Positions 15,182-33,920 of a stretch of 59,694 nt of DNA are shown here, piece after piece. The first letter of the stretch is position 1, and each line of letters begins with the position of its first letter. The translations under genes were made by a program, and so were the position numbers. Below the pieces are notes generated by a model, which was not told the DNA's origin, did no database searches, and saw nothing but the letters and a program-made list of their open reading frames with translations. The DNA is from Hyphococcus sp. (GTDB lineage Bacteria; Pseudomonadota; Alphaproteobacteria; Caulobacterales; Parvularculaceae): NCBI GenBank assembly GCA_028285645.1, contig JANQOV010000094.1:1-59694 (forward strand), written 5' to 3'.

Positions 15182-15205
15182 GAAAGCCCTCCGTTCAATA
15201 TTATA

Positions 15206-15353: not shown

Positions 15354-15370
15354 GTAGTTGAAACACCTGA

Positions 15371-16039: not shown

Positions 16040-16041
16040 CG

Positions 16042-17865: not shown

Positions 17866-18167
17866 AGTTTATCCTCCCAATCTTCGGCGTTCTTCGCCAT
17901 TGCGCCGAACAGCGACGCCAAGCTGATAGGCCTTGCGTCGCGATGGCTAACGCAAAGCATGCCGACTATTGGTCGGCTCAGTTTGCGACCCTATTCGTAG
18001 CGCCCATACTATTCATTTGTAACTAACATGCAAGCATGCTAATGAAATTCTCGGATCGTTATTATCACCCCGGGGGATGGATTGATACTCGCGCACGCGC
18101 TGTGCGCGCATCCCCGGTCGCTCAGAATGCGCTAAAACAGAATCGAAAATGGAGGCGGCGGCAATAG
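17866..18167. other. 302-bp divergent promoter region, BVMO / SDR
   Basis: No open frame of note. It holds both start regions (BVMO ribosome site at 17870-17878, SDR leader with GGAGGCGG at 18151-18158) and the operator-like palindrome at 18026-18042. A GC-rich stretch with CCCCGGGG lies at 18068-18075. Confidence 0.7.
18026..18042. promoter_or_regulatory. GntR operator site, BVMO / SDR promoter region
   Basis: ACATGCAAGCATGCTAA: this 17-mer is repeated without change at 19539-19555 and contains the core GCAAGCATGC, matching the palindromes beside gntR. Its position between the BVMO and SDR genes suggests control of both. Confidence 0.7.
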
Positions 18168-18914
18168 ATGGATTTTGGAATTTCAGGTCGCAACGCAATT
18201 GTGTGCGCGGCCAGCCAGGGCCTCGGCAGGGCTTGTGCAATGGCGCTTGCCAAGGAAGGCGTAAACGTTGTCATCAACGGTAGAAATCTAGAAACGCTTG
18301 AAAAGACCGCGGACGAAATTCGCGCAGAAGCACCAGATGTAAACGTGCGGACGGTTGTGGGAAGCGTGACAGATCCTGACTGCCGCGCGGCGATGGTCGA
18401 TGCGGCTGGCGAACCGGATATCCTTCTGAACAATGCCGGCGGACCGCCGCCGGGCGACTTTCGTGATTGGGATCGAGACGCCTGGATTGAGGGGCTCGAC
18501 ACAAACATGTTGAGCGCCATTGAACTGATCCGGCTCACCGTTGACGGCATGGCGAGCAGAGGGTTTGGGCGCATCGTCAATATTACATCGTCGACGGTTC
18601 GCGTTCCGATTCCAGTGCTCGGAATGTCAAACGCCGCACGCGCTGGATTAACCAATTTCGTTTTTGGTCTCGTACCCGAATTGTCGAGCAAAGGCGTGAC
18701 GATCAATAATATTCTTCCGGGACCGTTTGACACTAATCGGCTTCGCAACTCCAAAGAATTGACGCGCCATCTTACGAAAAACCCTGTTGCCGGGCGCGTT
18801 GGGGACCCTGCGGAGCTTGGCGCCGTTTGCGCATTTTTATGCAGCACCCATGCGGGCTATATTTCCGGGCAAAACATTCAAATAGACGGCGGGCTCTATC
18901 CCGGCGCTTTCTAG
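18168..18914 (+). CDS. SDR-family protein lacking the usual Tyr-Lys catalytic pair
   Basis: A 248-residue Rossmann protein. The cofactor motif is CAASQGLGRACA (13-24) in place of TGxxxGIG, NNAG is at about 89-92, and the catalytic Ser stands in NITSSTVR. At the site where the YxxxK motif should be, the sequence reads GMSNAARAGL, so Tyr is Met and Lys is Arg. Other SDRs annotated as beta-ketoacyl reductase-like have the same LSNxxR form, and their chemistry is unclear. The C-terminus VPxxxxSGQNIQIDGGLYPGAF is normal. It is divergent from the BVMO and may act on the same ketone/alcohol, perhaps as a non-standard reductase or a binding protein. It ends 16 bp from the convergent GlcG-like gene. 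Confidence 0.85.
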   Translation: MDFGISGRNAIVCAASQGLGRACAMALAKEGVNVVINGRNLETLEKTADEIRAEAPDVNVRTVVGSVTDPDCRAAMVDAAGEPDILLNNAGGPPPGDFRDWDRDAWIEGLDTNMLSAIELIRLTVDGMASRGFGRIVNITSSTVRVPIPVLGMSNAARAGLTNFVFGLVPELSSKGVTINNILPGPFDTNRLRNSKELTRHLTKNPVAGRVGDPAELGAVCAFLCSTHAGYISGQNIQIDGGLYPGAF

Positions 18915-18930: not shown

Positions 18931-19359
18931 TCAATCGTTGCTGAATGCTGTTAAGCCTGCCTGCGCAATTGCGTTGTCTTCATCGCCGCTGCCGCCGGAG
19001 ACGCCGACGCCGCCAATGAGTCGACCATCTTGGTGAATTGGAAAACCGCCGGGCAGGGGCGTTGCTTTTGGATGCGCAAGAAGCCCGTCGCGAACAAGGG
19101 GTTCAAAGTCTTCGACAAGCTGGCCAAAGCTGTGGCTGGGCATGCCGAAGCTCGCTGCTGTCCAGGCTTTCCACTGTGCGTAGTCGACCGATGCGAGAAA
19201 GCTTCCTGGCATTTTCACAAAACCAGTCAGCACGCCGGAGGCGTTCACAATCGCGATCGCGACTTTCGCGCCTTGTTGCTCCGCCTCTTCCACCATGCAT
19301 CTCACTGCGTTTTGAACGCTGGCGCAATCAAGCTCATCGTTGAATTTTGGGTCGGTCAT
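18931..19359 (-). CDS. GlcG/HbpS-like protein
   Basis: A 142-residue GlcG/HbpS (DUF336) protein. Typical elements are VQNAVRCMVEEAEQQGAKVAIAIVNASGVLTGFVKMPGSFLASVDYAQWKAWTAASFGMPS and the C-terminal PLPGGFPIHQDGRLIGGVGVSGGSGDEDNAIAQAGL. The fold binds haem or small effectors in HbpS. In catabolic clusters its role is mostly unknown; some members in degradation operons are enzymes. There is no signal peptide, so it is likely cytoplasmic. It is divergent from the TonB receptor and shares the operator at 19539. Confidence 0.88.
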   Translation of the reverse strand: MTDPKFNDELDCASVQNAVRCMVEEAEQQGAKVAIAIVNASGVLTGFVKMPGSFLASVDYAQWKAWTAASFGMPSHSFGQLVEDFEPLVRDGLLAHPKATPLPGGFPIHQDGRLIGGVGVSGGSGDEDNAIAQAGLTAFSND

Positions 19360-19624: not shown

Positions 19625-21880
19625 ATGAGGCTTACCACAGCATCATTGTTGGCGATTTCTGTCGCCCTGGGGCCGACGGTCGCGGCGGCTCAAGAAGAGG
19701 ACGGCGGCGAAAGGGGGCGCGTCGGTATCGACAGCGTTGTCGTCACGGCTGAAAAGCGTGAGAGCACCCTGCAGGATACGCCGTTCGCCATATCCGCTTT
19801 TGGCGGCGATTCGCTCGAAGATCGCGGCATCGACGATCTTTCGAACTTTCAATCCTATGTACCGGGATTTCATGTCGGTCAGGAACAGGATGGTTTTAAG
19901 GTCTCGCTGCGCGGCATCGGCCTGCAGGGAACGTCATCCATCACCGACCCCGGCGTCGCGTTTTATATCGACAATCTTTACATCCCCCGGCCAGCCGGCG
20001 GCAGTGCTATCTTCTACGATGTCGATCGAATCGAAGTGCTGCGCGGACCGCAGGGAACGCTCTATGGTCGCAATGCGACGGGCGGCGTCGTCAACGTCAT
20101 ATCCAATGAACCGACTTTCGATTATGAGGGACAAATCGGCGCGACTTACGGATCTCGCGATCTTTGGGAAGTGCGGGGTACGGCGAACATTCCGCTAAGC
20201 GAGAACACAGCAACACGATTTTCAATCGTAAGAACGGAAGAAAACGGTTACGTCGATAACGTTTTTTCCGCCAGCAGTGACGACGATCCGTTCGGCACGG
20301 AGGGTGACTTCACCGCCCGCGGACAACTTCTCGTCGATGGCGGCGATGATGATTGGTCGATTTTGGCGAGCGCCACCTATAGCGACCTGAACGGCTCCGG
20401 CGTCGCCATGCACTTTCTTGAACGCGTTACAGGCGGTCCGCCGCCGGTCCAGGGGCTGATTGCTTCAATGGTGCCGCCGGACCCGACCGACCCGCTTATC
20501 GTCAATAATGACGCGGAAGCTTTCAACGACACGGAAACGCTTTCGACCTTCTTGCGCTTTGAAAAGGCCGTCGGCTCTGTTGATCTGTGGATGCAGGCGG
20601 GGATGTTGTGGCAGGATACAAGCCTGCAACAGGATTTTGACGGATCACCGATCGACGTCAGCATCTTCAACAAAGAACAAGAAAACGAAGCCGAGAGTGT
20701 CGAACTGCGGTTGTCGTCCAATAATGACAGTCCGTTGGAATGGATCCTCGGCGCCTATTACTTCCATGAAGACACTTTCATATTCCGCCGCGTGCGGTTG
20801 AACGGATTTGTGCCGGCGCCAGGACCGGGCATGATTAGCCTGCCGGATTTCCTTCTGGATGAGTTCGGCGCATCCCGAACAATCGCCGGGTTTGCGTCTG
20901 CTACTTATTCTCTATCCGACGCGCTTCGCCTTACAGGCGGCGTCAGATACACGGCGGACAAGAAGACGGGGTCCCTGTTCAACACGTCAAACTTTGGCTT
21001 GCCAACGCGTCCTGACCTTACTGATATCGAAGAAACCTTTACAAAAGTTACTTGGAGAGGCGGACTCGAATACGACATCAACGATAACGCGCTTGCTTAC
21101 GCCAACGTCTCTAGCGGCTACAAGGCCGGCGGATTCAACATCACGTCCAATGGTGATCCGTATGACGAGGAAAATGTCATCGCGTATGAAGCCGGCTTGA
21201 AATCAAATCCATTCGACGGCCGGGCGCAAATCAATATCGACGCGTTCTATTATGATTACACCGACCTGCAGTTGACGACACTTCTCTTTATTGGCGGCGC
21301 GCCGGGCCAATTCACCACCAATGCCGGTAAGGCGACGCTGTGGGGCGTTGAACTCGATACGCAATATGAGTTGTCAGATAATCTGCTGGCGAATTTGACT
21401 TACTCTTACATCGACGCAGAGTTCGACGAATATTGTAATCTAGATCCGCGGTTCCCATCGCCGGGCGCTATGGATCCGAGCGATCCCGGGTGTCCGCTAG
21501 GCGGGCTTACCAATCTCGCCGGGAACAAAATTCCCTATGTGGCGGACCATACGATTACGGGCGGGCTGCAATATGCATTTGATCTCGGCAGCGCAGGAAG
21601 CGTTGTTGCAGCGGTTAACACGTCGTGGCACAGCGAATTGTTCCTACGCGAATATAATGACCCTGTCATTGATCGCGTTGGGCCGAACACAAAAACGGAT
21701 ATCACCTTGACGTATTTCGTCGCCGATAGCGGCCTGGCGATCACCGGGTTCGTGACCAATCTCGAGGATGATGTTGAGCGGAACAACATTTACATCACGC
21801 CGGGCTTTATCGGCGAAAGCGCAACCACGGCCTATACGAAGCCGCGCACATTCGGCGTCAAAGTGGATTATGAATTTTAG
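19625..21880 (+). CDS. TonB-dependent receptor, first of a paralogous receptor-SBP pair
   Basis: A 751-residue outer-membrane receptor with GGGAGGGAAGA before the ATG and a signal peptide ending AAA-QE near residue 22. The TonB box region is VVVTAEKRE (about 38-46). The plug follows (TLQDTPFAISAFGGDSLEDRGI, RIEVLRGPQGTLYGRNATGGVVNVIS) and the barrel ends in FGVKVDYEF with terminal Phe. The plug is closely similar to that of the receptor at 29486-31762. Receptors of this class take up hydrophobic or sugar compounds as well as iron chelates. It is followed after 16 bp by a lipoprotein binding protein, then by a small exported protein and two GSTs on the same strand. Confidence 0.94.
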   Translation: MRLTTASLLAISVALGPTVAAAQEEDGGERGRVGIDSVVVTAEKRESTLQDTPFAISAFGGDSLEDRGIDDLSNFQSYVPGFHVGQEQDGFKVSLRGIGLQGTSSITDPGVAFYIDNLYIPRPAGGSAIFYDVDRIEVLRGPQGTLYGRNATGGVVNVISNEPTFDYEGQIGATYGSRDLWEVRGTANIPLSENTATRFSIVRTEENGYVDNVFSASSDDDPFGTEGDFTARGQLLVDGGDDDWSILASATYSDLNGSGVAMHFLERVTGGPPPVQGLIASMVPPDPTDPLIVNNDAEAFNDTETLSTFLRFEKAVGSVDLWMQAGMLWQDTSLQQDFDGSPIDVSIFNKEQENEAESVELRLSSNNDSPLEWILGAYYFHEDTFIFRRVRLNGFVPAPGPGMISLPDFLLDEFGASRTIAGFASATYSLSDALRLTGGVRYTADKKTGSLFNTSNFGLPTRPDLTDIEETFTKVTWRGGLEYDINDNALAYANVSSGYKAGGFNITSNGDPYDEENVIAYEAGLKSNPFDGRAQINIDAFYYDYTDLQLTTLLFIGGAPGQFTTNAGKATLWGVELDTQYELSDNLLANLTYSYIDAEFDEYCNLDPRFPSPGAMDPSDPGCPLGGLTNLAGNKIPYVADHTITGGLQYAFDLGSAGSVVAAVNTSWHSELFLREYNDPVIDRVGPNTKTDITLTYFVADSGLAITGFVTNLEDDVERNNIYITPGFIGESATTAYTKPRTFGVKVDYEF

Positions 21881-21896
21881 CGTGGGGACGCACAAA

Positions 21897-22925
21897 ATGC
21901 TTGTCTCGCCGCCGGTTGATCAGCCGGCGGCGGCTTGCGTTTGTACCGTACGGATTTCGCGGCGACTAACCTCCCTGTTCGCTGCACTCCTGCTCGTCGC
22001 TTGCGGCGAGCAGGAGACCGGCGTTTCTGATCCCGCTCTGACAATCTATTCTCCAGCCCCGCCGACAATTATGCTTCACCGGCACAATGCGGCCTTTGGC
22101 GAGTTGCTCGCTGCCTGCGGCATTGAGAACACAGTCGTCCCGCTTGCGTTGCCTCAGTCCATCAACCGCGCGGCGTCCATGACGGGCGAAGAAAAGAAAA
22201 ATGATCTTCCGATTGTTACAACGATCGACTTTTTGCCTGCGGTCGAACAGGGCGGTCCTCAATGGCACGCTTATGATCGGGCGAACAGCGATCTCAAATT
22301 CGTCGCGTCTCTCTATGACGTGGTCTTTGGCGTCCTGGCCTTCAATGAGAATATTACGTCACCGTCTGATCTAAAAGGAAAACGGATTGGTGCGCCGCCA
22401 CGACCAAGCGCTGTTCGGTTGTATACAGAAGCGCTGTTGCAAGACGGGTGGGGCATTATCGACGACGTTGAAATTATCGACATGCGACCGCCGGACCTGG
22501 CGGACGCAATCGCAAACAAGACGATCGACGCAACCACGTGGAATTTGATAAGCATCTCCGAGGGTGGACTTGAGGCAATGGCGCCGGGCCTTCTCGATGT
22601 TGAAGGCGCACGCTGGATCGCCGTTGGTGAAGCGTCTGTCCGCGCGATCAATGCTGCGAACGTATTTAAAGTTGAAAACACGCGCATCGAAAATCCTGAA
22701 GGCGAAGAAACCGGCTTGCTGTCATTTCGCCAGGCGCTCGCAGCATGGGATGCGACGCCGAATGAAACCGTAAGCGCCATTCTCGCCTGCATGGAACAAG
22801 ACGACGCCTCCAACATCTTTCCAAGCGTCGCGAGCGAGATGGCGCATTGGCCGGATCTTGCACAAAAAAACGTTCACGCCGCCGCCCTCGAATTCTACAG
22901 CCAGCGCGGCGTTGTCCTTGACTAG
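21897..22925 (+). CDS. Lipoprotein substrate-binding protein (NMT1/TAXI-like), no ABC partner nearby
   Basis: A 342-residue periplasmic binding protein. The start at 21897 is set by GTGGGGA upstream and by the lipobox LVAC (Cys36) after a hydrophobic stretch (27-35). The longer frame would run inside the TonB gene. The mature sequence has TIYSPAPPTIMLHRHNAAF, DLPIVTTIDFLPAVEQGGPQW, SDLKGKRIGAPPRPSAVRLYTEALL and TIDATTWNLI, the NMT1-type binding fold. No permease, ATPase or TRAP subunit is near. It is a clear paralogue of the gene at 28379-29419, and both follow a TonB receptor, so it probably receives the ligand released by the receptor into the periplasm. Confidence 0.85.
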   Translation: MLVSPPVDQPAAACVCTVRISRRLTSLFAALLLVACGEQETGVSDPALTIYSPAPPTIMLHRHNAAFGELLAACGIENTVVPLALPQSINRAASMTGEEKKNDLPIVTTIDFLPAVEQGGPQWHAYDRANSDLKFVASLYDVVFGVLAFNENITSPSDLKGKRIGAPPRPSAVRLYTEALLQDGWGIIDDVEIIDMRPPDLADAIANKTIDATTWNLISISEGGLEAMAPGLLDVEGARWIAVGEASVRAINAANVFKVENTRIENPEGEETGLLSFRQALAAWDATPNETVSAILACMEQDDASNIFPSVASEMAHWPDLAQKNVHAAALEFYSQRGVVLD

Positions 22926-22956
22926 GTCTTGAAGCAAGCAAAGAGGAAATCATACG

Positions 22957-23226
22957 ATGAAAAGAACAGTTTTCATTACAGCCCTGATGACGGCGGCCGC
23001 GACAATGAACGCACAGGCAAGCGATGAGGGCGCTGCTTGGTGTGAAAGTTTTACAGAAGCCAGCGGCATTTCCGATGAGCCGTGCGCTTGTGTTGTCGAA
23101 ACGGTTGAAACCGACGCCAACCTTGCAGAAGAACTTTATTCCTTCGCAACGAGAGATGAGTTTGTCGCCGACGGATCAAGCGAGCTGAAGGCGCTCCTCG
23201 AGCCTTGTGTCGGCGACGCGTCCTGA
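22957..23226 (+). CDS. Small exported cysteine-rich protein, unknown function
   Basis: An 89-residue protein with AGAGGAAAT before the ATG and a signal peptide (MKRTVFITALMTAAATMNAQA-S). The mature roughly 68 residues are acidic with four cysteines (WCESF, EPCAC, EPCVG), enough for two disulphides. I do not recognise a family. It is 31 bp after the binding protein and 44 bp before a GST, so it belongs to the same unit and likely sits in the periplasm beside the binding protein. Confidence 0.7.
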   Translation: MKRTVFITALMTAAATMNAQASDEGAAWCESFTEASGISDEPCACVVETVETDANLAEELYSFATRDEFVADGSSELKALLEPCVGDAS

Positions 23227-23270
23227 TTGGACGAAGCGCCTGTTGAGATTGTCGCTCGGGAGAGCAGGAT

Positions 23271-24083
23271 ATGTCCTTAACGCTCTACCATCACGGGGGC
23301 GCGACCTGCGCTGCGAAGGTGCGAATGTGCCTTGCAGAAAAGGGTTTGGAATGGGAGGGCGTTTATCTCGATATTCTGAAGGGCGATCAATTTGATCCGG
23401 AATATCGAAAGCTCAATCCGAAAGGGGTCGTGCCGACGCTCATTCACGATGACAAAGTGATCGTCGAATCAACCGTCATTAACGACTATCTCGACTATGT
23501 TTTTCCGGAGCCGCCGCTGACGCCGACATCGCCCTATGAACGAGCGCAAATGCAGATTTGGTTGAAGGCGCTGGACGAGTACATTCATCCTTCGTTCGCG
23601 GAGGTGAATTTCTCCTCATGTCTTCGTCACCTCATCAACAAGGATGAAAAAGAAAAGGTTGATGCTTTTCTAAGCGGCACCCCGAACCAATCCATTACGC
23701 CGCGATGGCGCCATCGCAGGGCGGAGCTCGTGCGGCTAGGATTTGACGCGCCCGGTCTCGCTGAGAATTATAAACTCTTCGACTCCTATCTCACCAAAAT
23801 GCATGAATCGTTGTCGCGGCATGATTGGTTGGCGGGCGATACATTTTCGCTGGCGGATATCGGCCTTGCTCCCTCCATTGCTTGGCTCTCTATGCTGAAC
23901 ATGGACGAGTGGTGGGAAAAGGATCGGTCCACAATTGCAGACTGGCTTGAACGCGTCCGAGCGCGCCCGGCATTCGACGCTGGCGTCACAGATTGGCTTC
24001 CGGCGGAGATGCGCAAGACATTCGGTGAGATCGGGAGCAAGTATTGGCCCGACGTCAAGAAAATTCTTGCGACCTTTTCCTGA
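23271..24083 (+). CDS. Glutathione S-transferase, LigF-like
   Basis: A 270-residue GST. The thioredoxin-like N-domain holds LNPKGVVPTLIHDDKVIVESTVINDYLDYVFPEP (about 44-77), which places the cis-Pro and the glutathione gamma-Glu site (ES). The C-domain has WRHRRAELVRLGF and SLADIGLAPSIAWL. By eye it resembles LigF beta-etherase of Sphingobium, including the ESTVIxxYL segment and the FxxVDEY-like helix (KALDEYIHP). LigF opens aryl beta-ether bonds with glutathione. The likeness is moderate; another GSH-dependent isomerase or dehalogenase is possible. RBS GGGAGAGCAGG precedes the start. Confidence 0.82.
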   Translation: MSLTLYHHGGATCAAKVRMCLAEKGLEWEGVYLDILKGDQFDPEYRKLNPKGVVPTLIHDDKVIVESTVINDYLDYVFPEPPLTPTSPYERAQMQIWLKALDEYIHPSFAEVNFSSCLRHLINKDEKEKVDAFLSGTPNQSITPRWRHRRAELVRLGFDAPGLAENYKLFDSYLTKMHESLSRHDWLAGDTFSLADIGLAPSIAWLSMLNMDEWWEKDRSTIADWLERVRARPAFDAGVTDWLPAEMRKTFGEIGSKYWPDVKKILATFS

Positions 24084-24135
24084 ACGGAAGGCCGCTGCAT
24101 GTCGGGCGTTGGTCTCGACAAGGTAAGAGAACCCT

Positions 24136-24834
24136 ATGCCAAACATAAAACTCTACTACTATCCCGGCACGTGCTCGCGCGGGCCGATGGTCGGTCTTGA
24201 GGAAGCCGGCGCTCCATACGATATGGAGCTCGTGGTTTTTGTGCGTGGCGAAAACAAATCGCCGTCATATCTGAAGCTCAACCCAAATGGTAAAGTGCCA
24301 ACCATGGTGGTCGATGGCGTATCGATTACCGAAACGTCGGCGATGATGCTTTTTCTTGCGCGGGCTTTTCCAGAAGCGCGTTTGCTGCCGTTCGGTAAGG
24401 GCGAAGTCGCGGACGCGAAGATCACCGCCGACGTGATCTGGTGTTCCGCCAGCGTCCATCCCAATGTGTTTCACACTCGATTGCCGCAGTTCTTTTGCGA
24501 CAATGAAGCGGGAATGACGCGCGTGCGTGAAATGGCCATGGAGCGGCTCGCCCGAGATTTTCAGCAAGTCGAAGATCGGCTCTCCGCCGGCCCCTGGTTT
24601 TTCGGCGAGCAATGGTCGGTTGTCGACGCCTATTTGTCTTGGGCTTGGTACCGCTTGAACGGAACCGATTTCGACTTTTCACCCTATCCCCGTTTTGCGG
24701 ACATGTATGAGCGTGTTCTCAAACGCCCAAGCGTAGAGCGAGCCTTGGCGAAAGAACAAGAAGCCTATGACTGGCTCGAAGAAAACGACTTGATGGTGAA
24801 TTTCAAAACGCTCAATCCGCAAAGCGGGCAGTGA
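24136..24834 (+). CDS. Glutathione S-transferase, beta-class-like
   Basis: A 232-residue GST with N-domain KLYYYPGTCSRGPMVGLEEAG (Cys13 at the place used by bacterial beta-class GSTs) and LNPNGKVPTMVVDGVSITETSAMMLFLARAFPE with the ETSA glutathione site. The C-domain has FFGEQWSVVDAYLSWAWYRL, the usual N-capping segment (SxxD). It could conjugate or isomerise a pathway intermediate. It lies 52 bp after the LigF-like GST with AAGGTAAGAGA before the start and is the last gene of this unit. Confidence 0.87.
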   Translation: MPNIKLYYYPGTCSRGPMVGLEEAGAPYDMELVVFVRGENKSPSYLKLNPNGKVPTMVVDGVSITETSAMMLFLARAFPEARLLPFGKGEVADAKITADVIWCSASVHPNVFHTRLPQFFCDNEAGMTRVREMAMERLARDFQQVEDRLSAGPWFFGEQWSVVDAYLSWAWYRLNGTDFDFSPYPRFADMYERVLKRPSVERALAKEQEAYDWLEENDLMVNFKTLNPQSGQ

Positions 24835-24874
24835 TGGGCCGATTTGCGGCTCGTATGCTTACGCGGCAGTCGCC

Positions 24875-24981
24875 CTAGAGCGTTTTGAAGGAAAAGTGGT
24901 TCACCGGTTTTCCGTCTCAAAACGCGCAAACAAAGATTCTAGAGCATCCGACTGAATCGCGCAGTGATCAGGATGCTCTAG
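24875..24981. repeat. Alphaproteobacterial CTAGAGC-type palindromic repeat (two hairpins)
   Basis: Two adjacent inverted repeats. The first has arms GCGTTTTGA and TCAAAACGC (about 24880-24926) around GGAAAAGTGGTTCACCGG and TTTTCC. The second has arms CTAGAGCATCC at 24939-24949 and its complement at 24971-24981. Such 'CTAGAGC...GCTCTAG' elements are frequent between genes in alphaproteobacteria. The second element runs into the 3' end of the MFS gene and supplies its last codons and stop (24968-24970). Confidence 0.8.
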
Positions 24982-26302
24982 TATTTCGGAATCGGCTGGC
25001 GATCGCCGCCGCAATAAAGGGAACAATCGCAACGCTTGCGAAAGTCCATTTCATGGGCAGCGCGAAAGAAAGCAATGCTGGCATGATAAGCGGGGCGGCG
25101 ACGGTCCCTATCCGCAACGCCGCCGCGCCGCCGCCAACGCCTGATGAACGGATCGCTGTAGGATAAATGAGCGCAGAGAGCGCATAGCCCGCCGATGTTG
25201 TGATCCCAAGGAAGAGGCCCATCACCGCCGCAGCAAGAATCGCAAGCTGCGTACCTTCAATGAGACCCAGCGACGCCGTGGCAAATGCAGCGACCAAGAA
25301 CGCCATACTGATCGTCAGGCGCGGACCAACGCTGTCGAGAATGCGCCCCGCCGCCGCCATGCCTAAAACCGCGCCGATATTGATCGCGCCGACAATTCTT
25401 GAGGCGTAACCGACAGAATAACCCGCTTCGTTGAAAATTGTTGGCAGCCAAACCAGCACCACATTCGAAAGAATGCCGCTGCAGAAGAGAAGCGTCCACA
25501 ACATCATCGTTGGCGTTATGAATTCCGCTGTGAAGAGCGCGCGTATCTCGGGCGGCGTGCGGCGTTGGTCGCGTTCTGATTCCGGGATCAGCGATTTCGA
25601 AATGGGTTCCCACAATGTGCTCGCATCAACGTTTGGAACAAGTCGCTTCATCGTCGCACCAATATAGCGCGCGCGATTGTCGTTGAGGGCGAGAAAGCGC
25701 GGCGACTCAGGCAGGGCGTAATAGATAATGACGGCCAATATGAGCGGCAGTGCAGCGCCAAAATAGAAAACAGCTTTCCATCCGATGGTTTCGGCAATGA
25801 CGCCGCCGGCGAGGCTGCCAATCGCAGCGCCAAGAGGAAAACCAGCGACCACGAGCGAGACAACCGTCGCGCGATAACGCTCGGGCGCGAGTTCAGATGT
25901 GAGCGCAAGCGTCGCCGGCAGAGCTCCGGTGAGTGCAAGGCCAACCAGAAACCGAACGACCAAAAGCGTCTCGAAAGTTTTGGCGACGGCCGTCATCCAG
26001 GTGAACGCTGCGATTAGGAGCAGCGAAATGATGATCAACAGTTTTCGGCCGTACCGGTCGGCGGCTTTGCCAAGCGCCAGCGCGCCGATCGCCGCGCCAA
26101 TTTGCGTGAGCGCAAGGATCGCGCCAAGCTGCCCCGCGGATAGATTCATATCTTGCATCATCAATGGCGCAACGACGCCAATCGCCACAAAGTCGAGCCC
26201 GTCAACGACGGCGACCAGAACGCAAAGGGCGATTGCGAATCCGCGATAGGCCGTAAACGGCGCATGGGCGAGTACTGTACTGACGCGTGCTGGGTTAGCC
26301 AT
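24968..26302 (-). CDS. MFS transporter, AAHS (aromatic acid:H+ symporter)-like
   Basis: A 444-residue 12-TM carrier. The first helix has DGLDFVAIGVVAP, the DGxDxxxxG pattern typical of AAHS transporters (PcaK, MhpT, BenK), where the Asp residues are needed for aromatic acid uptake. Loop 2-3 has GKAADRYGRKLLI and loop 8-9 AGRILDSVGPRLTIS. It should take a carboxylated aromatic through the inner membrane. It lies at the end of the operon TonB-SBP-ABM-hydroxylase-MFS, 27 bp after the hydroxylase. Its C-terminal residues TRAS and stop codon come from the palindromic repeat. Confidence 0.9.
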   Translation of the reverse strand: MANPARVSTVLAHAPFTAYRGFAIALCVLVAVVDGLDFVAIGVVAPLMMQDMNLSAGQLGAILALTQIGAAIGALALGKAADRYGRKLLIIISLLLIAAFTWMTAVAKTFETLLVVRFLVGLALTGALPATLALTSELAPERYRATVVSLVVAGFPLGAAIGSLAGGVIAETIGWKAVFYFGAALPLILAVIIYYALPESPRFLALNDNRARYIGATMKRLVPNVDASTLWEPISKSLIPESERDQRRTPPEIRALFTAEFITPTMMLWTLLFCSGILSNVVLVWLPTIFNEAGYSVGYASRIVGAINIGAVLGMAAAGRILDSVGPRLTISMAFLVAAFATASLGLIEGTQLAILAAAVMGLFLGITTSAGYALSALIYPTAIRSSGVGGGAAALRIGTVAAPLIMPALLSFALPMKWTFASVAIVPFIAAAIASRFRNTRAS

Positions 26303-26329
26303 AACGAATGTCTGTTGCCGGTCGCTGCA

Positions 26330-28015
26330 CTATTCAGCGGCAATTTGTTGGGTGTGTCGTGTCTTTTGGCCCGCGCCGAATTCTGCGAGGAATTGCCGAC
26401 ACGCCCCAAAATCGAAACCCGTAACGCGCCACGCGACATAGTTATCCGGGCGGATCACATAAAGCGCCTGGCGATTTTCACCTTCATCGACGCCGTAACA
26501 ATCAAACACGTCGGGATTGCTTGCGAAGATACACTCGTCGTCACGCCCGAAGGCGAGGCGGGTGATGAGCGACGCCGCCGCGCCCGGATATTGGCTCTTT
26601 AGTGAGTCCAGATCGTTCCGTATTTGGGCGCGTTCATCTGCATTCAAAGGCTGTCGTGAAAATGCGACCAAATGAAAGCGATACCCTTTGAGTAGCGCAA
26701 ACATGTCAAGGTCGTCATTGATCCGTATGTTCGGCGCCCGCTCGCCAGCCCGCGGTCCTTTGTCGGGCCAGCGCGGCCCTTCGCCAACATACCGGCTGAT
26801 CTCGTAACTGATGTTGCGCTCCGAGACATTGAAGAAACCCTTGCGATGAAACTTCGCGGCGCGAGATGCAATGGGCAAAAACACCTTGGCCATCGCGTCG
26901 CGCATCGTCGCTTTCCAGCCCGCTTGTCCAGCGGAAGCGGCGAAGAGTTTGCCGGTTGTCCGCAAAAGCAATTCGCCGACCGGTTTTCGCTCGTCATGAT
27001 AATTGTCGAGCAGCTCATCGTCCGCGCCGTGTCTGAGAACGGCCCCTAGTTTCCAGGCGAGATTGGCTGCATCCTGCAGGCCAGTGTTCATGCCCTGGCC
27101 GCCCGCTGGGGAATGAATATGCGCTGCGTCACCGGCAACGAACATCCGACCCGCCCGATACTGTTCAGCCGCACGGTGATGCGCGCGATAGCGCGTTACC
27201 CATATTGGGCTAGAAAGCTTTGCAGGCAGACATATGGATTTCTCGAAGGCGTCTTGTAGCTCGGAAAGATCAAGTGCAAGTCCTTTACTCGCATCGCCGT
27301 CTTCATCACTTGAGAGATCCGTCGCCATGACGCGCGAAAGGTTGCTGCCGCCGAGCGGAAGAAAGAGCCCGATGCGGCGACCATTGATGAACACGCGAAA
27401 ACGATGGTGATCGAGCGGCCAGTCAACTTTGCAATCGGCGAGCAAAAAGCTCTGCGCAAATGTCCCGCCGGTGAAATTGATACCAGCGGCCTTTCGGACA
27501 ATGCTCCGCGAACCGTCAGCGCCGATAACATAAGCGCACCGCAATGTTGATGTCGCGCCGCTTTCGCCGCGAAGTGTCACAGAAACGCCAGTCGCATCTT
27601 GCGCGATGTCAGTAGCTTCCATCCCTCGTTCAACATTAAGGCCAAGAGCGGCAAGGTCTTCGATGAGGATCCGTTCCGTCTCCGACTGTGCGATCATCAA
27701 TATGAAGGGGAAGGGCGTATCGGTGGCTTGCGCGCGATCTGTATTGAGACCGCCGCAGAATTTTCCCTGCACGTGAATATCGACACCCGTCGTCATGACG
27801 CCGCACGCCAGGAATTCATCCGACAGCCCAATCGATTGCATCAATTCAAGCGTACGCGCCTGCACCGCGAAAGCCCGCGACTCCCGCGTTGCTTCCGTGC
27901 GCTTTTCAACAATGCGTACATCGACACCGGATCGTTTCAAAAGGTCAGCAGCAATGAGGCCGGTCGGCCCGGCGCCGACCACCAACACTTCGCAATCGAG
28001 AACATGTTTTGACAT
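26330..28015 (-). CDS. FAD-dependent aromatic hydroxylase, MhpA-like (class A)
   Basis: A 561-residue flavoprotein monooxygenase of the PHBH fold. It shows GAGPTGLIAADLL (14-26), the DG motif GADGSRSIVRKAAG (about 168-181) and the GD motif VAGDAAHIHSPAGGQGMNTGLQDA (about 293-316). A C-terminal thioredoxin-like domain (about 440-545) is normal for the MhpA/phenol hydroxylase branch. It likely hydroxylates a phenol to a catechol that feeds the extradiol dioxygenases 12-14 kb away. It follows the ABM gene after 34 bp in the unit run by the second GntR. Confidence 0.9.
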   Translation of the reverse strand: MSKHVLDCEVLVVGAGPTGLIAADLLKRSGVDVRIVEKRTEATRESRAFAVQARTLELMQSIGLSDEFLACGVMTTGVDIHVQGKFCGGLNTDRAQATDTPFPFILMIAQSETERILIEDLAALGLNVERGMEATDIAQDATGVSVTLRGESGATSTLRCAYVIGADGSRSIVRKAAGINFTGGTFAQSFLLADCKVDWPLDHHRFRVFINGRRIGLFLPLGGSNLSRVMATDLSSDEDGDASKGLALDLSELQDAFEKSICLPAKLSSPIWVTRYRAHHRAAEQYRAGRMFVAGDAAHIHSPAGGQGMNTGLQDAANLAWKLGAVLRHGADDELLDNYHDERKPVGELLLRTTGKLFAASAGQAGWKATMRDAMAKVFLPIASRAAKFHRKGFFNVSERNISYEISRYVGEGPRWPDKGPRAGERAPNIRINDDLDMFALLKGYRFHLVAFSRQPLNADERAQIRNDLDSLKSQYPGAAASLITRLAFGRDDECIFASNPDVFDCYGVDEGENRQALYVIRPDNYVAWRVTGFDFGACRQFLAEFGAGQKTRHTQQIAAE

Positions 28016-28049
28016 GAGGTCAGCTCTTTCTTCCTGTCAGCGCGTTTGT

Positions 28050-28382
28050 TCAACCGGCTAGTTCCGCTTCCTCAAGTTCCGCCTGTTTTGTCGTCAATAT
28101 CTGTGTGCGCGTAATCTCGTAAGGCTTGACGAACAAATCCGGTTGCGATGCTTGAACCCACTTTGCAACCTGACCTCCAACGTGCGCTTGCAGCGCTGCT
28201 TCGTCAACGAACAAATTGAATATAGCAAACTTTCCGTCGCCAATTTCCATGGCGTAAAAATTTGTCGTGCCAGGTTCGCTCCCAAGGCGCCGAGCGGCCT
28301 CTCGCAAAAATGCGCGAGCTTCATTTTCTTTTCCGGGATGCGCTTCCATCGTCGCCCAAACGGCGTATTGATCATGGCTCAT
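28050..28382 (-). CDS. Antibiotic biosynthesis monooxygenase (ABM) domain protein
   Basis: A 110-residue ferredoxin-like dimeric protein: QYAVWATMEAHPGKENEARAFLREAARRLGSEPGTTNFYAMEIGDGKFAIFNLFVDEAALQAHVGGQVAKWV is a standard ABM domain (EPGT, aromatic strand, FxDxxAxxxH). Members are cofactor-free quinone-forming oxygenases or regulators of monooxygenases. It overlaps the binding-protein gene by ATGA and precedes the hydroxylase by 34 bp, so it may help that hydroxylase. Good AAAGGGA ribosome site. Confidence 0.87.
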   Translation of the reverse strand: MSHDQYAVWATMEAHPGKENEARAFLREAARRLGSEPGTTNFYAMEIGDGKFAIFNLFVDEAALQAHVGGQVAKWVQASQPDLFVKPYEITRTQILTTKQAELEEAELAG

Positions 28383-29419
28383 TTCTGTTTCCCTTTGTCA
28401 GAGTGCTTTAAAAATTGCGGATCCTTGCTGCGGTAGTAACGTAAAGCGGCGGCGTGAACCGCTTCCTCTTCAAGCCCCGGCCAGTCATTGATTGCTGTTG
28501 CAGTTCCGTTTTGATCAGTATCAAGACACTTAAGAATATCGGTGATCTGCTCATCGCTGGTTGAAGACCACGCGGCCAGTGATTGACGGAAAGAAAGGAG
28601 GGTTGGAGCGGCTCCCGCACTTGTCCCAGCCTGTTTCGCGGCGCTTTTGACGGTCACTGTCCGGGTGACGAAGTCATTATTTGCGTTGATGCGTTTCACG
28701 TCAGCCTCGCTAACCGAAAGCCAGCGACCCGTCTCCGGCAATGACGGCAACAGCGGGCGATACCCGTTCGGCGTTTCCACCATCATGTTCCACGTGGTCG
28801 CGTCAATCGTTCCAGCCGCCGCCGCGTCAGCAACCGCGTTTGGCGGCAAGTCAATCAGGACGACATCGCCCAGAACACCCCAACCGTCGCCCAACAACGC
28901 TTCCGCCATGACGCGTAAACTACTTGGGCGGCGCGGAACCGCGATTGTCTTGCCTTTTAGATCCTTCGGCGTTTGGATTTCATCGTCAAAGACCATCATG
29001 CCGATGCCGACCTCATAAAGACTGGCGACGAATTTCAGGTCCTCGTGCGGTCGCGCATAGTGATGCCATGCTGCGCCGGTTCCTTTTACGGCCGGCAAAA
29101 AGTCCGCTGTGGTAACGATGGGAAGATGCACGCCGCGTTCGGACAGCTTTCCGATGGCGTTGATGGAATCCGGTAGGGCCTGCGCGATAACGGCGACGTC
29201 GTCGTCAGCACTGCAGGCATTCAGTTTTGCGGCGATCTCTTCATTGATTGACCAAAGCATGTTTGGCGGCGCCGCGGGCGAGTAAATAGTAATTGCCGGA
29301 TGCGTCGTGCGACTCGAGCGGGAGGTTTGCTCCGACACGGCGCACCCGGTGATTATTACTGCGATCAAGGCTGCAGTAACACAGTAAGAAAGTATCTTTA
29401 TCCCAATTACGTTGAACAA
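28379..29419 (-). CDS. Lipoprotein substrate-binding protein (NMT1/TAXI-like), paralogue of the 21.9-kb gene
   Basis: A 346-residue periplasmic binding lipoprotein, lipobox IITGC (Cys26). It starts with TTG at 29419 with AGGA 11 nt upstream; no ATG fits. Matches with the other binding protein include LPIVTTADFLPAVKGTGAAWHH, EDLKFVASLYEV, DLKGKTIAVPRRPSSLRVMAEALLGDGWGV and TIDATTWNMM. No permease or ATPase gene is near. It lies 66 bp after the TonB receptor and overlaps the ABM gene by 4 bp. Inference: it hands a compound brought in by the receptor to the MFS carrier, or senses it. Confidence 0.85.
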   Translation of the reverse strand: MFNVIGIKILSYCVTAALIAVIITGCAVSEQTSRSSRTTHPAITIYSPAAPPNMLWSINEEIAAKLNACSADDDVAVIAQALPDSINAIGKLSERGVHLPIVTTADFLPAVKGTGAAWHHYARPHEDLKFVASLYEVGIGMMVFDDEIQTPKDLKGKTIAVPRRPSSLRVMAEALLGDGWGVLGDVVLIDLPPNAVADAAAAGTIDATTWNMMVETPNGYRPLLPSLPETGRWLSVSEADVKRINANNDFVTRTVTVKSAAKQAGTSAGAAPTLLSFRQSLAAWSSTSDEQITDILKCLDTDQNGTATAINDWPGLEEEAVHAAALRYYRSKDPQFLKHSDKGKQK

Positions 29420-29485
29420 AAGAGTTCACATCCTGCTCTTGGCGGAAACAGCCGCAGCTTGTGAAAAGCAGGTCCAGTCATAGTT

Positions 29486-31762
29486 TTAGAATTCGTAATC
29501 AACACGAATGCCCCAGCTGCGGGGTCTGGTGTATGTTCCAACGGCGTTGGTGCCGAGAAAGCCAGGGCTGACCTGAATGTTGTTCAGCGCTGGGTCGTTT
29601 TCGATGTTGGTGACGTATCCTGTAATGGATAAGCCTTCCTTTGGCGGAAGATAGGTAACCGTCACATCCGTTTTTGAAAACGAGCCCTGCCTGTCAACGA
29701 CCGGATCGTTGTATTCCCTGGCGAAATACTCGCTTTGCCACGACGTATTGACAGAAGCGACAAGTTCGCCCGCGCCGCCCAAATTCGCCGTGTATTGCAG
29801 CCCCGCCGTGATTGTGTGATCCGAAACAAAGGGGAGGGTGTTGCCGTTCAAATCCGAAAGGCCAAGAGGGACGGCGGGGGGCGCCGGGTCCAGCGACTGG
29901 CATACGCCTTCACTGATATCACCCGGCCCGGGATCCCCGAACCTGTCGTCGCGATTACAATACTCGTCAAACTCGGCGTTGATGTATGAATAGCTGAAGT
30001 TGAAAAGCAACGCTTCCGTAAGCTCGTAAAGCGTGACCAACTCGACGCCATAGACCGTCGTCGCCGCGGCGTTGGTGATGATTTGCTGCGGCACGTCGTT
30101 TATCGGCACTGTCGCCGACAACTGCAGGTCTGTGTAGTCATAGTAAAACGCGTCGATGTTGACCTGTGCGCGACCGCCAAGCGGGCTCGACTTCATGCCG
30201 ATCTCGTAGGCCGTCAGAGTTTCCGGCTCGTAAGAATCTGTTGAGACGCCGGAAATGTTAAACCCGCCGGCCTTATAGCCCGTGGAGACGTTGGCGTAGA
30301 GCAGAACGTTTTCGGCCGCGTCGTATTCCAGGCCGCCCTTCCAGGTGACCTTGTCGAATTTTTCTTCTAACGGCAGCACCGGCGGAGCCGGCGGTCCGAA
30401 GAAAAACGAGATGGTCTCGTTTGATCCGCCTTTCTTATCGCGCGTATATCGAACGCCGCCCGTCACGCGGAGTTCATCCGTCAACGAATAAGTTGCAGAC
30501 GCAAAGCCGCCAATCGTTGAGCTGTCGCCAAACTCGTCAATCACAAAGGGCGTCAGATCCACCGGCATCGGCGGGGCCGGCGGCGGGAGAAACGATCTCA
30601 GCGTTACTTGCCGGCTGATCGTCGTGTCTTCGGTAAAATAGTATAAGCCGGCCAGCCACTCCAGCGGTCCTTCGGTATTGGACGCAAGACGAAACTCGAC
30701 GCTAAAGGCTTCATTGTCTGTCTGCTTTCCAAGGTTGGAGATTTCTGAATCCGATCCGTCTGCATCCTGCAGCAGATTGGTGTCTTGCCACAGACCGCCG
30801 ACCTGGAGGAAAGCATCGACCGGTCCGAAACCCTTTTCGATGCGCGCAAACGCCGACAGGGATTCGGTATCGTTGAACGTCGGACTATTGTGGGCGACTT
30901 TCAGCACGTCAGGGTCTTCCGGCGGCAACATGTTGAGAAGCGGTATCACGCCGCCGGCGGCGCCCTGCGTGTTGCGTTCCAGATACTTCAACGGCGCGCC
31001 CGTGCCGTCGAGATCGCTGTAGGTCGACGAAAGCAGAATTTTCAGATCGTCGCTCGGTTCGAACAACAACTGGCCGCGGATCGTCAGATCGCCGTCGGTT
31101 CCGAGCAAGTCGCTGGTTCCCGGCTGCGTGGATAAATTCTCCACATATCCGCCTTCTTCCGTGCGAACGATAGAAAATCGCGCAGCCGCCACATCGCCGA
31201 GCGGCAGATTCAAAACGCCTCGCCCTTCGATAAGATCGCGGCTTCCATAGGTGAAACCGACCTTGCCGCCAAACTCGTCTTCCGGTTCTTGCGAGATGAC
31301 GTTGATGACGCCGCCCGTGGCGTTTCGGCCGTAAAGCGTGCCTTGGGGGCCGCGCAGAACCTCAATCCGATTGATGTCGTAGAATATCGCGCTGCCGCCG
31401 GTCGGGCGCGGCATATATAAGTTGTCGATGTAAAAAGCGACGCCCGGGTCGGTAAGGCTTGTGGTTCCTTGCGTTCCGACGCCCCTGAGCGCGACGCGGA
31501 AACCGTCCTGTTCCTGCCCCACATGCAGATTAGGAACATAAGATTGCAGGTTTGACAGATCGTCGATGCCGCGATCTTCCATCAGCTCGCCGGAAAAGGC
31601 GGAAATCGCGATCGGCGTTTCCTGCAAGGTGGTTTCGCGTTTTTGCGCCGTGACGGTGATGACGTCGTCGGTTTCCGCGCCTTGCGCAATGCTCGTTGAC
31701 GGAACGGCAAGCGCCAATGCGAAGACCGATGCGCCGCCCGCGATGACAGATTTTCTGGCCAT
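29486..31762 (-). CDS. TonB-dependent receptor, second of the paralogous receptor-SBP pair
   Basis: A 758-residue outer-membrane receptor. The start at 31762 is chosen from GAGGAAAA directly upstream; an ATG 15 bp earlier would put the ribosome site inside the gene. The signal peptide ends near SIA-QG. It has VITVTAQKRE (TonB box region), the plug TLQETPIAISAFSGELMEDRGI and RIEVLRGPQGTLYGRNATGGVINVIS, and a barrel ending GIRVDYEF. The plug is nearly the same as in the receptor at 19625-21880. First gene of an operon with binding protein, ABM, hydroxylase and MFS; divergent from a GntR gene (118 bp). Confidence 0.94.
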   Translation of the reverse strand: MARKSVIAGGASVFALALAVPSTSIAQGAETDDVITVTAQKRETTLQETPIAISAFSGELMEDRGIDDLSNLQSYVPNLHVGQEQDGFRVALRGVGTQGTTSLTDPGVAFYIDNLYMPRPTGGSAIFYDINRIEVLRGPQGTLYGRNATGGVINVISQEPEDEFGGKVGFTYGSRDLIEGRGVLNLPLGDVAAARFSIVRTEEGGYVENLSTQPGTSDLLGTDGDLTIRGQLLFEPSDDLKILLSSTYSDLDGTGAPLKYLERNTQGAAGGVIPLLNMLPPEDPDVLKVAHNSPTFNDTESLSAFARIEKGFGPVDAFLQVGGLWQDTNLLQDADGSDSEISNLGKQTDNEAFSVEFRLASNTEGPLEWLAGLYYFTEDTTISRQVTLRSFLPPPAPPMPVDLTPFVIDEFGDSSTIGGFASATYSLTDELRVTGGVRYTRDKKGGSNETISFFFGPPAPPVLPLEEKFDKVTWKGGLEYDAAENVLLYANVSTGYKAGGFNISGVSTDSYEPETLTAYEIGMKSSPLGGRAQVNIDAFYYDYTDLQLSATVPINDVPQQIITNAAATTVYGVELVTLYELTEALLFNFSYSYINAEFDEYCNRDDRFGDPGPGDISEGVCQSLDPAPPAVPLGLSDLNGNTLPFVSDHTITAGLQYTANLGGAGELVASVNTSWQSEYFAREYNDPVVDRQGSFSKTDVTVTYLPPKEGLSITGYVTNIENDPALNNIQVSPGFLGTNAVGTYTRPRSWGIRVDYEF

Positions 31763-31880: not shown

Positions 31881-32717
31881 ATGAGCACAACTGTCGCCAC
31901 TTCTGATATCGGGGGCTCCCGAGAGAACGTTATGTCCGTCTATCGCCGCATCCGTCGGATGATCCTCGCTGGCGATATCAAAAGCGGTCAGCCCTTGTCG
32001 CAGGTCCAACTCGCTGTCGATTTTGAAGTCAGCCGAGGGCCCGTTCGCGAGGCATTGCGGATGCTGCAGCGGGAAGGGTTGATCGAGGCGGAAACCAATC
32101 AAAGGGGCCGTGTCGCAACATTCTCTGCGGCGGATATGGAGCAGGTCTGCGCGATGCTTGTTCTTAACGTCGCGGCGGCGATTTCCATGGGCGACGGGCT
32201 GTTCTCGGAAAAGGACGTTGCGCGTATCAAATACCGGATCGATTTGATTGAGCGTCTGGCTGACGACGCGCCCCATTCACGAAGGCGGATCTTTCGGCGT
32301 CAGTTGGCGTTTCGCCGACTGGTGACAATGCTTTGCCAATATTCCGGCCCGGTGATTGTTGAAACCATCGACGGACTTCTGGATCGCATCGCGCTGTTTC
32401 GGCAAATGTATGAAGCGGTGGGGGATTCTCCGCCCTATCCATTGGCCAGCCGCTTTACGGAGCTGCGGCGCGCTAGTGAAGATTATGATGCACAGGCGAT
32501 GGCGCGGGTTGCGGTTGAGAAAATTGCTGAAGTCTCTCGTAAAGCGCTTGCCTATGTATCCAAAAGCCATCAACCGGCGGTGCTAAACGCGTATGTGGAC
32601 AAAGCCTATAAGTCATTGCGCGACGCCGCTCATGAAGGCGATAACTTGGGTGAGCTTACCATTAAAGTGCGCGGCAAGCCGAATTCCCAACTTGAATATG
32701 TTGTAACGCACGACTGA
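31881..32717 (+). CDS. GntR-family regulator of the TonB-SBP-hydroxylase operon
   Basis: A 278-residue regulator with the GntR winged helix at about 18-85 (MSVYRRIRRMILAGDIKSGQPLSQVQLAVDFEVSRGPVREALRMLQREGLIEAE). The C-terminal all-helical domain is FCD-like but less typical, with an extended basic tail (about 230-278). It is divergent from the TonB receptor operon, its most likely target. The 118-bp region is AT-rich with TATTTAGTAA and TATTTGTTATT repeats, unlike the GCWAGCATGC sites of the first GntR, so the two regulators probably have separate operators. No Shine-Dalgarno is visible. Confidence 0.88.
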   Translation: MSTTVATSDIGGSRENVMSVYRRIRRMILAGDIKSGQPLSQVQLAVDFEVSRGPVREALRMLQREGLIEAETNQRGRVATFSAADMEQVCAMLVLNVAAAISMGDGLFSEKDVARIKYRIDLIERLADDAPHSRRRIFRRQLAFRRLVTMLCQYSGPVIVETIDGLLDRIALFRQMYEAVGDSPPYPLASRFTELRRASEDYDAQAMARVAVEKIAEVSRKALAYVSKSHQPAVLNAYVDKAYKSLRDAAHEGDNLGELTIKVRGKPNSQLEYVVTHD

Positions 32718-32777: not shown

Positions 32778-33284
32778 ATGACAGACGCGGAAACGAAATT
32801 CACCGATAGATTGCCCATTCGCGTGGGTTCAAGACCGCAGACCACTGATTGCGCGCCCCACAGCCAGATCGATCAGCTTCCGGAGCAAGCTACTGGCAAG
32901 AAACTCAGTGAGTTTATGATCGAGAAGATTGCGTCGTTTTCCGATGTTAAAACCGGCGCCAGTCGGCGGGCGCCGCCGGGCACCGTGGGATTTTATCTGG
33001 ATCCCAAATGCGCCGCCAGCGACGTGCGTTGCTTTCTCCTCGGCAACGAATTTGCGCATGTGCATATCAGTGACGACGGCAGTCTCCACGCCATTTTGGC
33101 CGAGCCGCTAAAAAGCGAGGCGATGGAGAAGGGCTGGGCTGAGCTCCACCCGCTTGCGGGCCAACCGACGGTTTCGCCAGACACAGTGATGATTTATGCG
33201 CCCCGCGACGAAAAAGAGGCGACGCTAATCGTCGATCTTGTCAAGGAAACCTGGCGCAACGCCCGGCAGCCTTGCGAGTCCTGA
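32778..33284 (+). CDS. DUF5519 (luciferase-like domain) protein
   Basis: A 168-residue protein. From about residue 50 it matches DUF5519: GTVGFYLDPKCAASDVRCFLLGNEFAHVHISDDGSLHAILAEPL, then GWAELHPLAGQPTVSPDTVMIYAPRDEKEATLIVDLVKETW. Members are widespread and uncharacterised, though a C-terminal 'luciferase' name is used. AAAGGA lies 5 nt before the ATG. It sits 60 bp after the GntR gene on the same strand and could be in its transcript, but no functional tie is visible. Confidence 0.75.
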   Translation: MTDAETKFTDRLPIRVGSRPQTTDCAPHSQIDQLPEQATGKKLSEFMIEKIASFSDVKTGASRRAPPGTVGFYLDPKCAASDVRCFLLGNEFAHVHISDDGSLHAILAEPLKSEAMEKGWAELHPLAGQPTVSPDTVMIYAPRDEKEATLIVDLVKETWRNARQPCES

Positions 33285-33359: not shown

Positions 33360-33920
33360 CTAAGCTGCTTTCTGCTGCAGGAATTGAACCGTGAATCCAT
33401 TTTCAGTATGGCGAAGAACTTTTCCAGGAATAGAGCCAACGCGGATTTGTGCGCCAACATACGGACGCTGGCTTGACGAGATAGCAGCGCCGCCTTCTGA
33501 GATATTGTCGATCCTGCAGATAAAGCACTCGCCATTTGCGACCATTCTCACAGGAGCCTCGATGTTCAATGCGCTCCGAAGATTTGAGCGCCTGTCGGCG
33601 AGGCGCAGATATGATCCCCCAGCGAGCGCTGCTTTAATTCTCTTGTCGAGAAATTCCCGGTAGGAATCGGAAATTGCGAATTCAACGCCGACGCCGCCAG
33701 ACCTTTTTGATACAATAGTGCCTTCCAGGCGGCCCAACTCGTCCGGGTAGATAACAACTTTGTCGCCAATATTGGCTTCAGCATCCGTCATCATGAACAA
33801 GCCGCCCTTGGAAATATCCGTCAGCAGCGCCGACGCTTCAGCGCCTCCATTAACGCTAAATCGCGCCTGCTTCTCTATCGCCTTGCGCTCATATGCGCGT
33901 CTGTCAGCCCCCTGTTGCAC
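33360..33920 (-). CDS. Tandem PilZ-domain protein
   Basis: A 186-residue protein with two PilZ domains. Domain 1 has RRAYERKAIEKQARF and DISKGGLFM; domain 2 has RRSNLRSALNIEAPVR and NISEGGAAI, i.e. the RxxxR and (D/N)xSxxG c-di-GMP motifs in each. The start is GTG with CGGAGG 5-10 nt upstream. It is probably a soluble c-di-GMP effector for motility or surface polysaccharide. No diguanylate cyclase is in the window. It shares the layout with the gene at 37675-38274. Confidence 0.88.
   Translation of the reverse strand: MQQGADRRAYERKAIEKQARFSVNGGAEASALLTDISKGGLFMMTDAEANIGDKVVIYPDELGRLEGTIVSKRSGGVGVEFAISDSYREFLDKRIKAALAGGSYLRLADRRSNLRSALNIEAPVRMVANGECFICRIDNISEGGAAISSSQRPYVGAQIRVGSIPGKVLRHTENGFTVQFLQQKAA

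Follow-up and report, generated by a model that had tools for sequence, protein, structure and literature searches.

The window analyzed here, a stretch of 59,694 nucleotides, is contig C147 of a Hyphococcus sp. genome (G000; 3.55 Mb, 86.6% complete). It contains two modules, A and B, in each of which a TonB-dependent receptor gene is followed on its own strand by a gene for a paralogous NMT1/TAXI-like lipoprotein (Table 1). This arrangement had been noticed in an earlier sequence-only reading, and it was borne out by our analysis: the lipoprotein gene starts 16 nt past the receptor stop in module A and 66 nt past receptor B in module B, the two lipoproteins are 42% identical, and the NMT1 model PF09084 scored above its cut-off in both. 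Both receptors matched the plug (PF07715) and the TonB barrel (PF00593) above cut-off. They are 58% identical overall and 56% identical past the plug region; for the plug domain, which had been described as nearly the same in both, the identity is 82% (88 of 107 aligned positions). Homologs of receptor A reach 79% identity in genome G039 and 83% in genome G519.

Table 1. Features of the two modules and of the adjoining catabolic genes in the window
Feature	Position	Strand	Evidence
Ring-cleavage island beside module A	8904-18914		Pfam/NCBIfam matches
TonB-dependent receptor A, 751 aa	19625-21880	+	PF00593 4.1e-34, PF07715 1.3e-16
TAXI/NMT1-type binding lipoprotein A	21897-22925	+	PF09084 1.4e-9; lipobox LLLVAC-GEQ
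Glutathione S-transferase 1	23271-24083	+	GST-type NCBIfam matches below cut-off, best maiA 1.4e-22
Glutathione S-transferase 2	24136-24834	+	PF13409, PF02798, PF13410 above cut-off
MFS carrier, aromatic acid:H+ symport type (module B)	24968-26302	-	PF07690 3.5e-54
FAD aromatic-ring hydroxylase (module B)	26330-28015	-	PF01494 2.6e-87
TAXI/NMT1-type binding lipoprotein B	28379-29419	-	PF16868 2.5e-7, PF09084 3.5e-6, both above cut-off
TonB-dependent receptor B, 758 aa	29486-31762	-	PF00593 3.8e-39, PF07715 3.3e-16
GntR-type regulator, divergent from receptor B	31881-32717	+	PF00392 1.5e-16

Besides the receptor and the lipoprotein, one module was said to carry two glutathione S-transferases (GSTs) and the other a hydroxylase and an aromatic acid:H+ symport (AAHS) carrier. 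The corresponding domains were found, the AAHS assignment coming from matches to TIGR00895 (2.3e-84) and to an MhpT model (1e-71) that are both below the curated cut-off. MhpA-type models were among the matches of the FAD hydroxylase, all of them below cut-off. GST 1 has a 94% identical homolog in the same place in G039, where the GntR-type regulator also has one (71% identical), and homologs of GST 2 were found near the receptor/binding-protein pair in G039, G285, G289, and G519. A small "Luciferase"-domain protein (PF17648, tested for the window copy) is encoded at 32778-33284; it travels with the island in G000, G039, and G109, with relatives at locus L019 (9945-10469) and locus L086 (1561-2079). 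Two further secondary carriers, absent from the sequence-only reading, were detected in the window with Pfam, an AbgT protein (41963-43582) and another MFS protein (48410-49729). They belong to a second transport and catabolic group at 41963-55228, which also includes an AraC regulator, a TonB receptor, an alpha/beta hydrolase, a Rieske oxygenase alpha subunit, a zinc alcohol dehydrogenase, and another TonB receptor.

The island beside module A encodes an acetaldehyde dehydrogenase, a hydroxy-oxovalerate aldolase, an oxopentenoate hydratase-like protein, WrbA, two extradiol dioxygenases, an alpha/beta hydrolase, a GntR-FCD regulator, a Baeyer-Villiger-type monooxygenase (BVMO)-like protein, and an SDR protein. 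The 4-hydroxy-2-oxovalerate aldolase and WrbA scored over cut-off and the 2-keto-4-pentenoate hydratase-like protein below it. One of the dioxygenases is of the glyoxalase type, and the other is a 3-carboxyethylcatechol 2,3-dioxygenase (MhpB type) for which one of its models was over cut-off. Judged by these domain assignments, the genes around module A encode a meta-cleavage pathway. The BVMO, the enzymes of Mhp type, and a pair of arginines that are invariant in the binding protein (see below) suggest that its substrate is probably a phenylpropanoid-like or aryl-ketone aromatic acid. An HbpS-like protein is encoded at 18931-19359 (PF03928, tested for the window copy); homologs accompany the island in five of the six further genomes discussed below (loci L014, L015, L017, L019, and L041), and the contig of the sixth, G289, stops short of that side.

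Next, we examined the conservation of the receptor/binding-protein pair. A profile of the binding protein was searched in overlapping samples of the family, order, class, and phylum, with only a few candidates scored per genome, so that misses are possible. Matches were obtained in 3 of 62 genomes of the family, 7 of 398 genomes of the order sample, 2 of 385 of the class sample (G000 and G519 only), and 1 of 398 of the phylum sample (G000 only). The order to which G519 belongs is represented by two genomes, one of which has the binding-protein gene. Altogether, nine distinct intact binding proteins were found in seven genomes of two alphaproteobacterial orders. This count leaves out a remnant in G020 and a second copy in G390, which lies on another contig with the same scores and neighbors and was counted once with the first. 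In the G020 case (G020:C1, L020 8713-9697), what is left of the protein matches roughly the C-terminal half of the profile and is overlapped on the opposite strand by an open reading frame (ORF) with a weak receptor match, and it reads as a decayed remnant; the island hydrolase was not found in this genome at the threshold used. A contig scan with a single protein returned a 62% identical relative in a Marinicaulis metagenome-assembled genome, already among the seven, and a tblastn search of plasmids with lipoprotein B (E 1e-8) gave no match.

A receptor of this subfamily was present near the binding-protein gene in all nine distinct intact cases. It is the adjacent gene on the same strand in six of them (modules A and B of both G000 and G039, G390, and G519). 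In the others, the genes in between are a GST (G289), a GST and an oppositely oriented metallo-hydrolase (G285), or an oppositely oriented metallo-hydrolase (G109). The metallo-hydrolase has a metallo-beta-lactamase fold (PF12706) and a lipobox-like N terminus, and its gene adjoins that of the binding protein in both G109 (L019 7809-8897, minus strand) and G285 (L017 9193-10467, plus strand). It may hydrolyze the imported compound in the periplasm. It was considered as a constant part of the module and rejected, since it was seen in these two genomes only.

The genes for the hydrolase, the MhpB-type and glyoxalase-type dioxygenases, the BVMO, and the GntR-FCD regulator lie beside the pair in all seven genomes; those of the lower pathway (aldolase and dehydrogenase) were seen in G000, G039, and G519 only, within the stretches read. 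The BVMO gene of G285 (L017 2278-4438) is broken up into two ORFs that overlap and differ in frame, possibly by a frameshift or an assembly error. The island hydrolase occurs in 6 of the 398 genomes of the order sample, exactly the six that have an intact binding protein. The probability of this overlap by chance is 1.9e-13 with genomes as units and 2.2e-6 with genera as units (four of 59), both figures being too optimistic because of relatedness and block transfer. Strong receptor matches were confined to 5 of 328 genomes, all with a binding protein; G390 was not among them, perhaps because it lies outside this smaller sample. The pairwise identities of the receptors and those of the binding proteins were correlated (r = 0.73), a value as high being reached in none of 10,000 label shuffles. 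Their trees agree except in how G109 and G390 are placed relative to each other, and both join the B modules of G000 and G039. In 34 of 36 pairwise comparisons, conservation was lower for the binding protein than for the receptor; the exceptions were G390 versus G285 and G390 versus G289.

We then asked what kind of protein accompanies the receptor. Both lipoproteins scored for the TAXI model TIGR02122 (2.6e-12 for lipoprotein B, whose gene has a TTG start, and 7.9e-9 for lipoprotein A) and for SsuA models, in every case below cut-off. They are the only PF09084 matches in the G000 genome, and other proteins matched as well in the other six genomes. One of five structure predictions was good, that of lipoprotein B (AlphaFold mean pLDDT 78.6, pTM 0.77); the other four had a pLDDT of 61 or lower. 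The best seven PDB fold matches of this model were TAXI type, with TM scores normalized by the query of 0.60 to 0.64. They include two structures titled TAXI (8s4j and 8u79), VcGluP (9ibo), and three entries that we take to be TAXI-like (4ddd, 9ibp with two chains, and 1us4). The predicted fold is thus nearest to that of TAXI-type TRAP binding proteins. Thi5 structures were also among the fold matches, and a sequence search of the PDB gave weak matches only, one of them 4,5-dihydroxyphthalate decarboxylase.

Export signals and lipoboxes were judged from the sequence pattern by reading rather than with a signal-peptide predictor. A lipobox was present in eight of the nine homologs (IITGC-AVS in lipoprotein B), although the pattern had to be loosened to include that of G390. 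Asp does not occur at position +2 in any of these eight. Besides the lipobox cysteine, two cysteines and two arginines, the latter in a PxRxSxxR stretch, were invariant in eight aligned homologs, and a disulfide bond and an anionic ligand are plausible from these residues. The G519 homolog (L041, G519:C3:208500-228400, 9412-10431, minus strand) has no lipobox cysteine and reads as having an ordinary export signal; the lipid anchor was probably lost in this lineage, with Ser standing about where Cys would be. The anchor is therefore dispensable in some cases. According to PMC12344293 and PMC11574862, lipoproteins make up a large share of the TAXI proteins, and binding proteins in general are periplasmic or are anchored so as to face the periplasm. 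The lipid anchor found here is thus no evidence for a role at the cell surface.

Binding proteins of the NMT1/SsuA and TAXI types would be expected to have a cognate ABC or TRAP permease. The window had been described as lacking such genes. In agreement with this, neither PF00528 (ABC permease) nor PF06808 (TRAP DctM) had a match in C147, and no ABC ATPase was found among the ORFs scanned with Pfam, a set that excludes, among others, those at 33360-33920, 34196-35338, and 37675-38337. GltS was likewise absent from the window genes scanned with Pfam. The search for PF00528 and PF06808 also covered six genomes (all but G519), the permeases of G109, G285, and G289 being read in part. In G000, PF00528 matched an adjacent pair of genes that is followed by an ATPase-like ORF and whose second member is Opp/Nik-like by model, and the PF06808 matches were one protein of the dctM type (C41) and one of the DASS type (C65). 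Neither a cognate permease of the NMT1/SsuA type nor a fused TAXI (QM) permease was found in this assembly, whose completeness of 86.6% limits these negative results. The four PF00528 matches of G390, a genome with a completeness rating of 100%, comprise an adjacent pair that looks PstC/PstA-like by position and score, one that is nitrate type by a model below cut-off, and one that is ModB sized.

In none of the six genomes searched did a PF06808 match adjoin the pair. In G039, G390, and G109, the DctM match is preceded, in the stretches read, by small membrane and exported ORFs, which we read by eye as putative DctQ and DctP; the exported ORF of G039 matched no NCBIfam model at E 1e-20. A PF00528 match near the pair was found in one of the six genomes, G039, as part of an ABC set that shares the strand of module A and lies about 4 to 5 kb downstream of it. 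It lies beside nitrate-assimilation-like genes and, reading these neighbors by eye, appears to be nitrate type. As a candidate for the cognate permease it was rejected, since the other five genomes searched have no PF00528 match in the vicinity of the pair. At C7, G039 also has an SsuC/TauC-like permease together with an SsuA-type protein of its own. The AAHS-type carrier is linked to module B only (G000 and G039). No close relative of it was seen around the A-type loci outside this genus in the stretches read, namely about 30 kb on each side in G109 and G519, the whole 44-kb contig of G285, one side in G390, and the 10-kb contig of G289. G109 has two MFS genes about 16 to 28 kb away whose products are about 24 to 25% identical to this carrier, and G519 has another multispan carrier near its A-type locus. 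The pair thus recurs outside this genome, in six others, beside the same ring-cleavage genes and without a conserved permease in the genomes searched.

We consider it about evenly balanced that each module provides the outer part of a route by which an aromatic compound is taken up across both membranes, with a periplasmic relay that dispenses with a TRAP or ABC permease. In such a route, the TonB-dependent receptor would bring the aromatic ligand across the outer membrane, and the TAXI-fold binding protein, usually lipid tethered in the periplasm, would take it over, prevent it from leaking back, and ferry it to the inner membrane. Entry into the cell would then proceed through a secondary carrier, such as the aromatic-acid-type MFS protein adjoining module B, or by passive diffusion. 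The observations behind this proposal are the gene order, the co-occurrence, the correlated divergence, the predicted fold, the lipobox in most homologs, and the lack of a matching permease in the data searched; from them we infer that the protein faces the periplasm and receives its cargo from the receptor, and likewise the nature of the ligand and of the inner-membrane step. Several points speak against the proposal: the AAHS-type carrier adjoins module B alone, no close relative of it was seen around the A-type loci read outside this genus, the carriers known to partner binding proteins are elevator type or likely so (PMC12344293), the G000 assembly is incomplete, an ABC permease lies near module A in G039, and only one of the five structure predictions was good.

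The binding protein could instead serve an ABC or TRAP permease whose genes are unlinked to the pair. Both proteins do score as NMT1/SsuA- and TAXI-like, the G000 assembly is incomplete, G039 has the permease at C7 and a second one close to module A, and orphan TRAP binding proteins are known (PMC12344293). However, the PF00528 matches of G000 amount to a single Opp/Nik-like pair, those of G390 look like PstC/PstA, nitrate-type, and ModB-sized proteins, the SsuC-like permease of G039 already has a binding protein, and proximity of a PF00528 match to the pair is peculiar to G039 among the six genomes searched, so that we regard this alternative as unlikely. The sequence-only reading had suggested an arrangement in the manner of SusCD, in which a surface lipoprotein would cover the receptor as a lid or help it to capture the ligand. 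In SusCD systems, a TonB receptor gene is located next to a lipoprotein gene, and by the rule established in Escherichia coli, the absence of Asp at +2 would allow sorting of a lipoprotein to the outer membrane. The conserved pairing, the divergence in step with the receptor, and the lipoboxes would fit such a function. The analogy with SusCD was not supported, since Pfam (complete lists, E <= 0.1) detected neither the SusC-type N-terminal domain in the receptors nor the SusD domain in the lipoproteins, the nearest predicted folds are periplasmic binding proteins of the TAXI TRAP type, and the G519 version, without a lipobox cysteine, is apparently soluble. We think a lid of this kind quite improbable.

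We also considered that the binding protein might work as a sensor in the periplasm or, despite its binding-protein fold, as an enzyme that acts on the imported compound. Enzymes with such a fold exist, as the matches to Thi5 and, weakly, to 4,5-dihydroxyphthalate decarboxylase show, and an exported-looking metallo-hydrolase adjoins its gene in G109 and G285. Since the best fold matches are solute-binding proteins, and no partner sensor kinase lies next to the pair in the loci read, such a role seems very improbable. Still less credence is given to the possibility that the binding protein is a bystander, carried along with the island but functionally unconnected to the receptor. The island apparently moves as a block, receptor A of G519 being 83% identical to that of G000 in spite of belonging to another order, and co-occurrence inside one block is not independent evidence. 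On the other hand, both duplicated modules of G000 and G039 retain the pair while other genes differ, and the reading frame of the binding protein has stayed intact across 40 to 60% identity in most pairs. The periplasmic relay remains our preferred reading.

Among described systems, TAXI-GltS of Bordetella pertussis (BP0403/BP0402) comes closest; there, a TAXI protein is assigned by genome context to a non-TRAP carrier, GltS (PMC12344293). It is a predicted lipoprotein of the TAXI family without a TRAP membrane component, and in this it resembles the TAXI-like lipoproteins described here, for which no such component was found; unlike here, the partner is an inner-membrane symporter, and BP0403 has extra domains (same source). 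In our case, the constant neighbor is an outer-membrane TonB receptor, and the binding protein is of conventional size. That source also cites a TAXI system transporting orthophthalate, an aromatic acid. TAXI-TRAP systems such as VcGluP (PMC11574862) resemble our proteins in the predicted fold, and lipidation is common in that family; in contrast to them, no fused QM permease was found here, and the sequences fall below the TAXI model cut-off. DdvT/DdvK of Sphingobium SYK-6 also combines a TonB receptor with an MFS carrier for a ring-cleavage pathway, and a search of the main text of PMC6874591 found no mention of a periplasmic protein, binding protein, or lipoprotein. As that system handles one aromatic compound with these two components, the binding protein here would be an added periplasmic step.

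The claim that no system of this exact kind has been described agrees with our literature search, which returned no pairing of a TonB receptor with an NMT1/TAXI lipoprotein, most subscription papers and preprints being outside its reach. The pairing itself is real, recurrent, and new in the literature searched, and it is built from known parts. More tentatively, it may represent a new architecture, in which a TAXI-fold protein is the dedicated periplasmic partner of a TonB receptor and feeds an MFS carrier or the bare inner membrane. To our knowledge, MFS carriers are not of the elevator type, and for most aromatic substrates it is not well understood how they traverse the periplasm once a TonB receptor has let them in. 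If the relay reading is true, a receptor for aromatic uptake would have a dedicated periplasmic partner, the jobs of TAXI binding proteins would extend past TRAP and GltS, and TonB-energized outer-membrane import would be the step served by a binding protein, replacing a TRAP or ABC permease. Carriers known to partner binding proteins are elevator type, or likely so, according to PMC12344293. A binding protein working without an elevator-type carrier would test the suggestion, published there, that binding proteins need such carriers, and the module that would provide this test is small, recurrent, and genetically testable.
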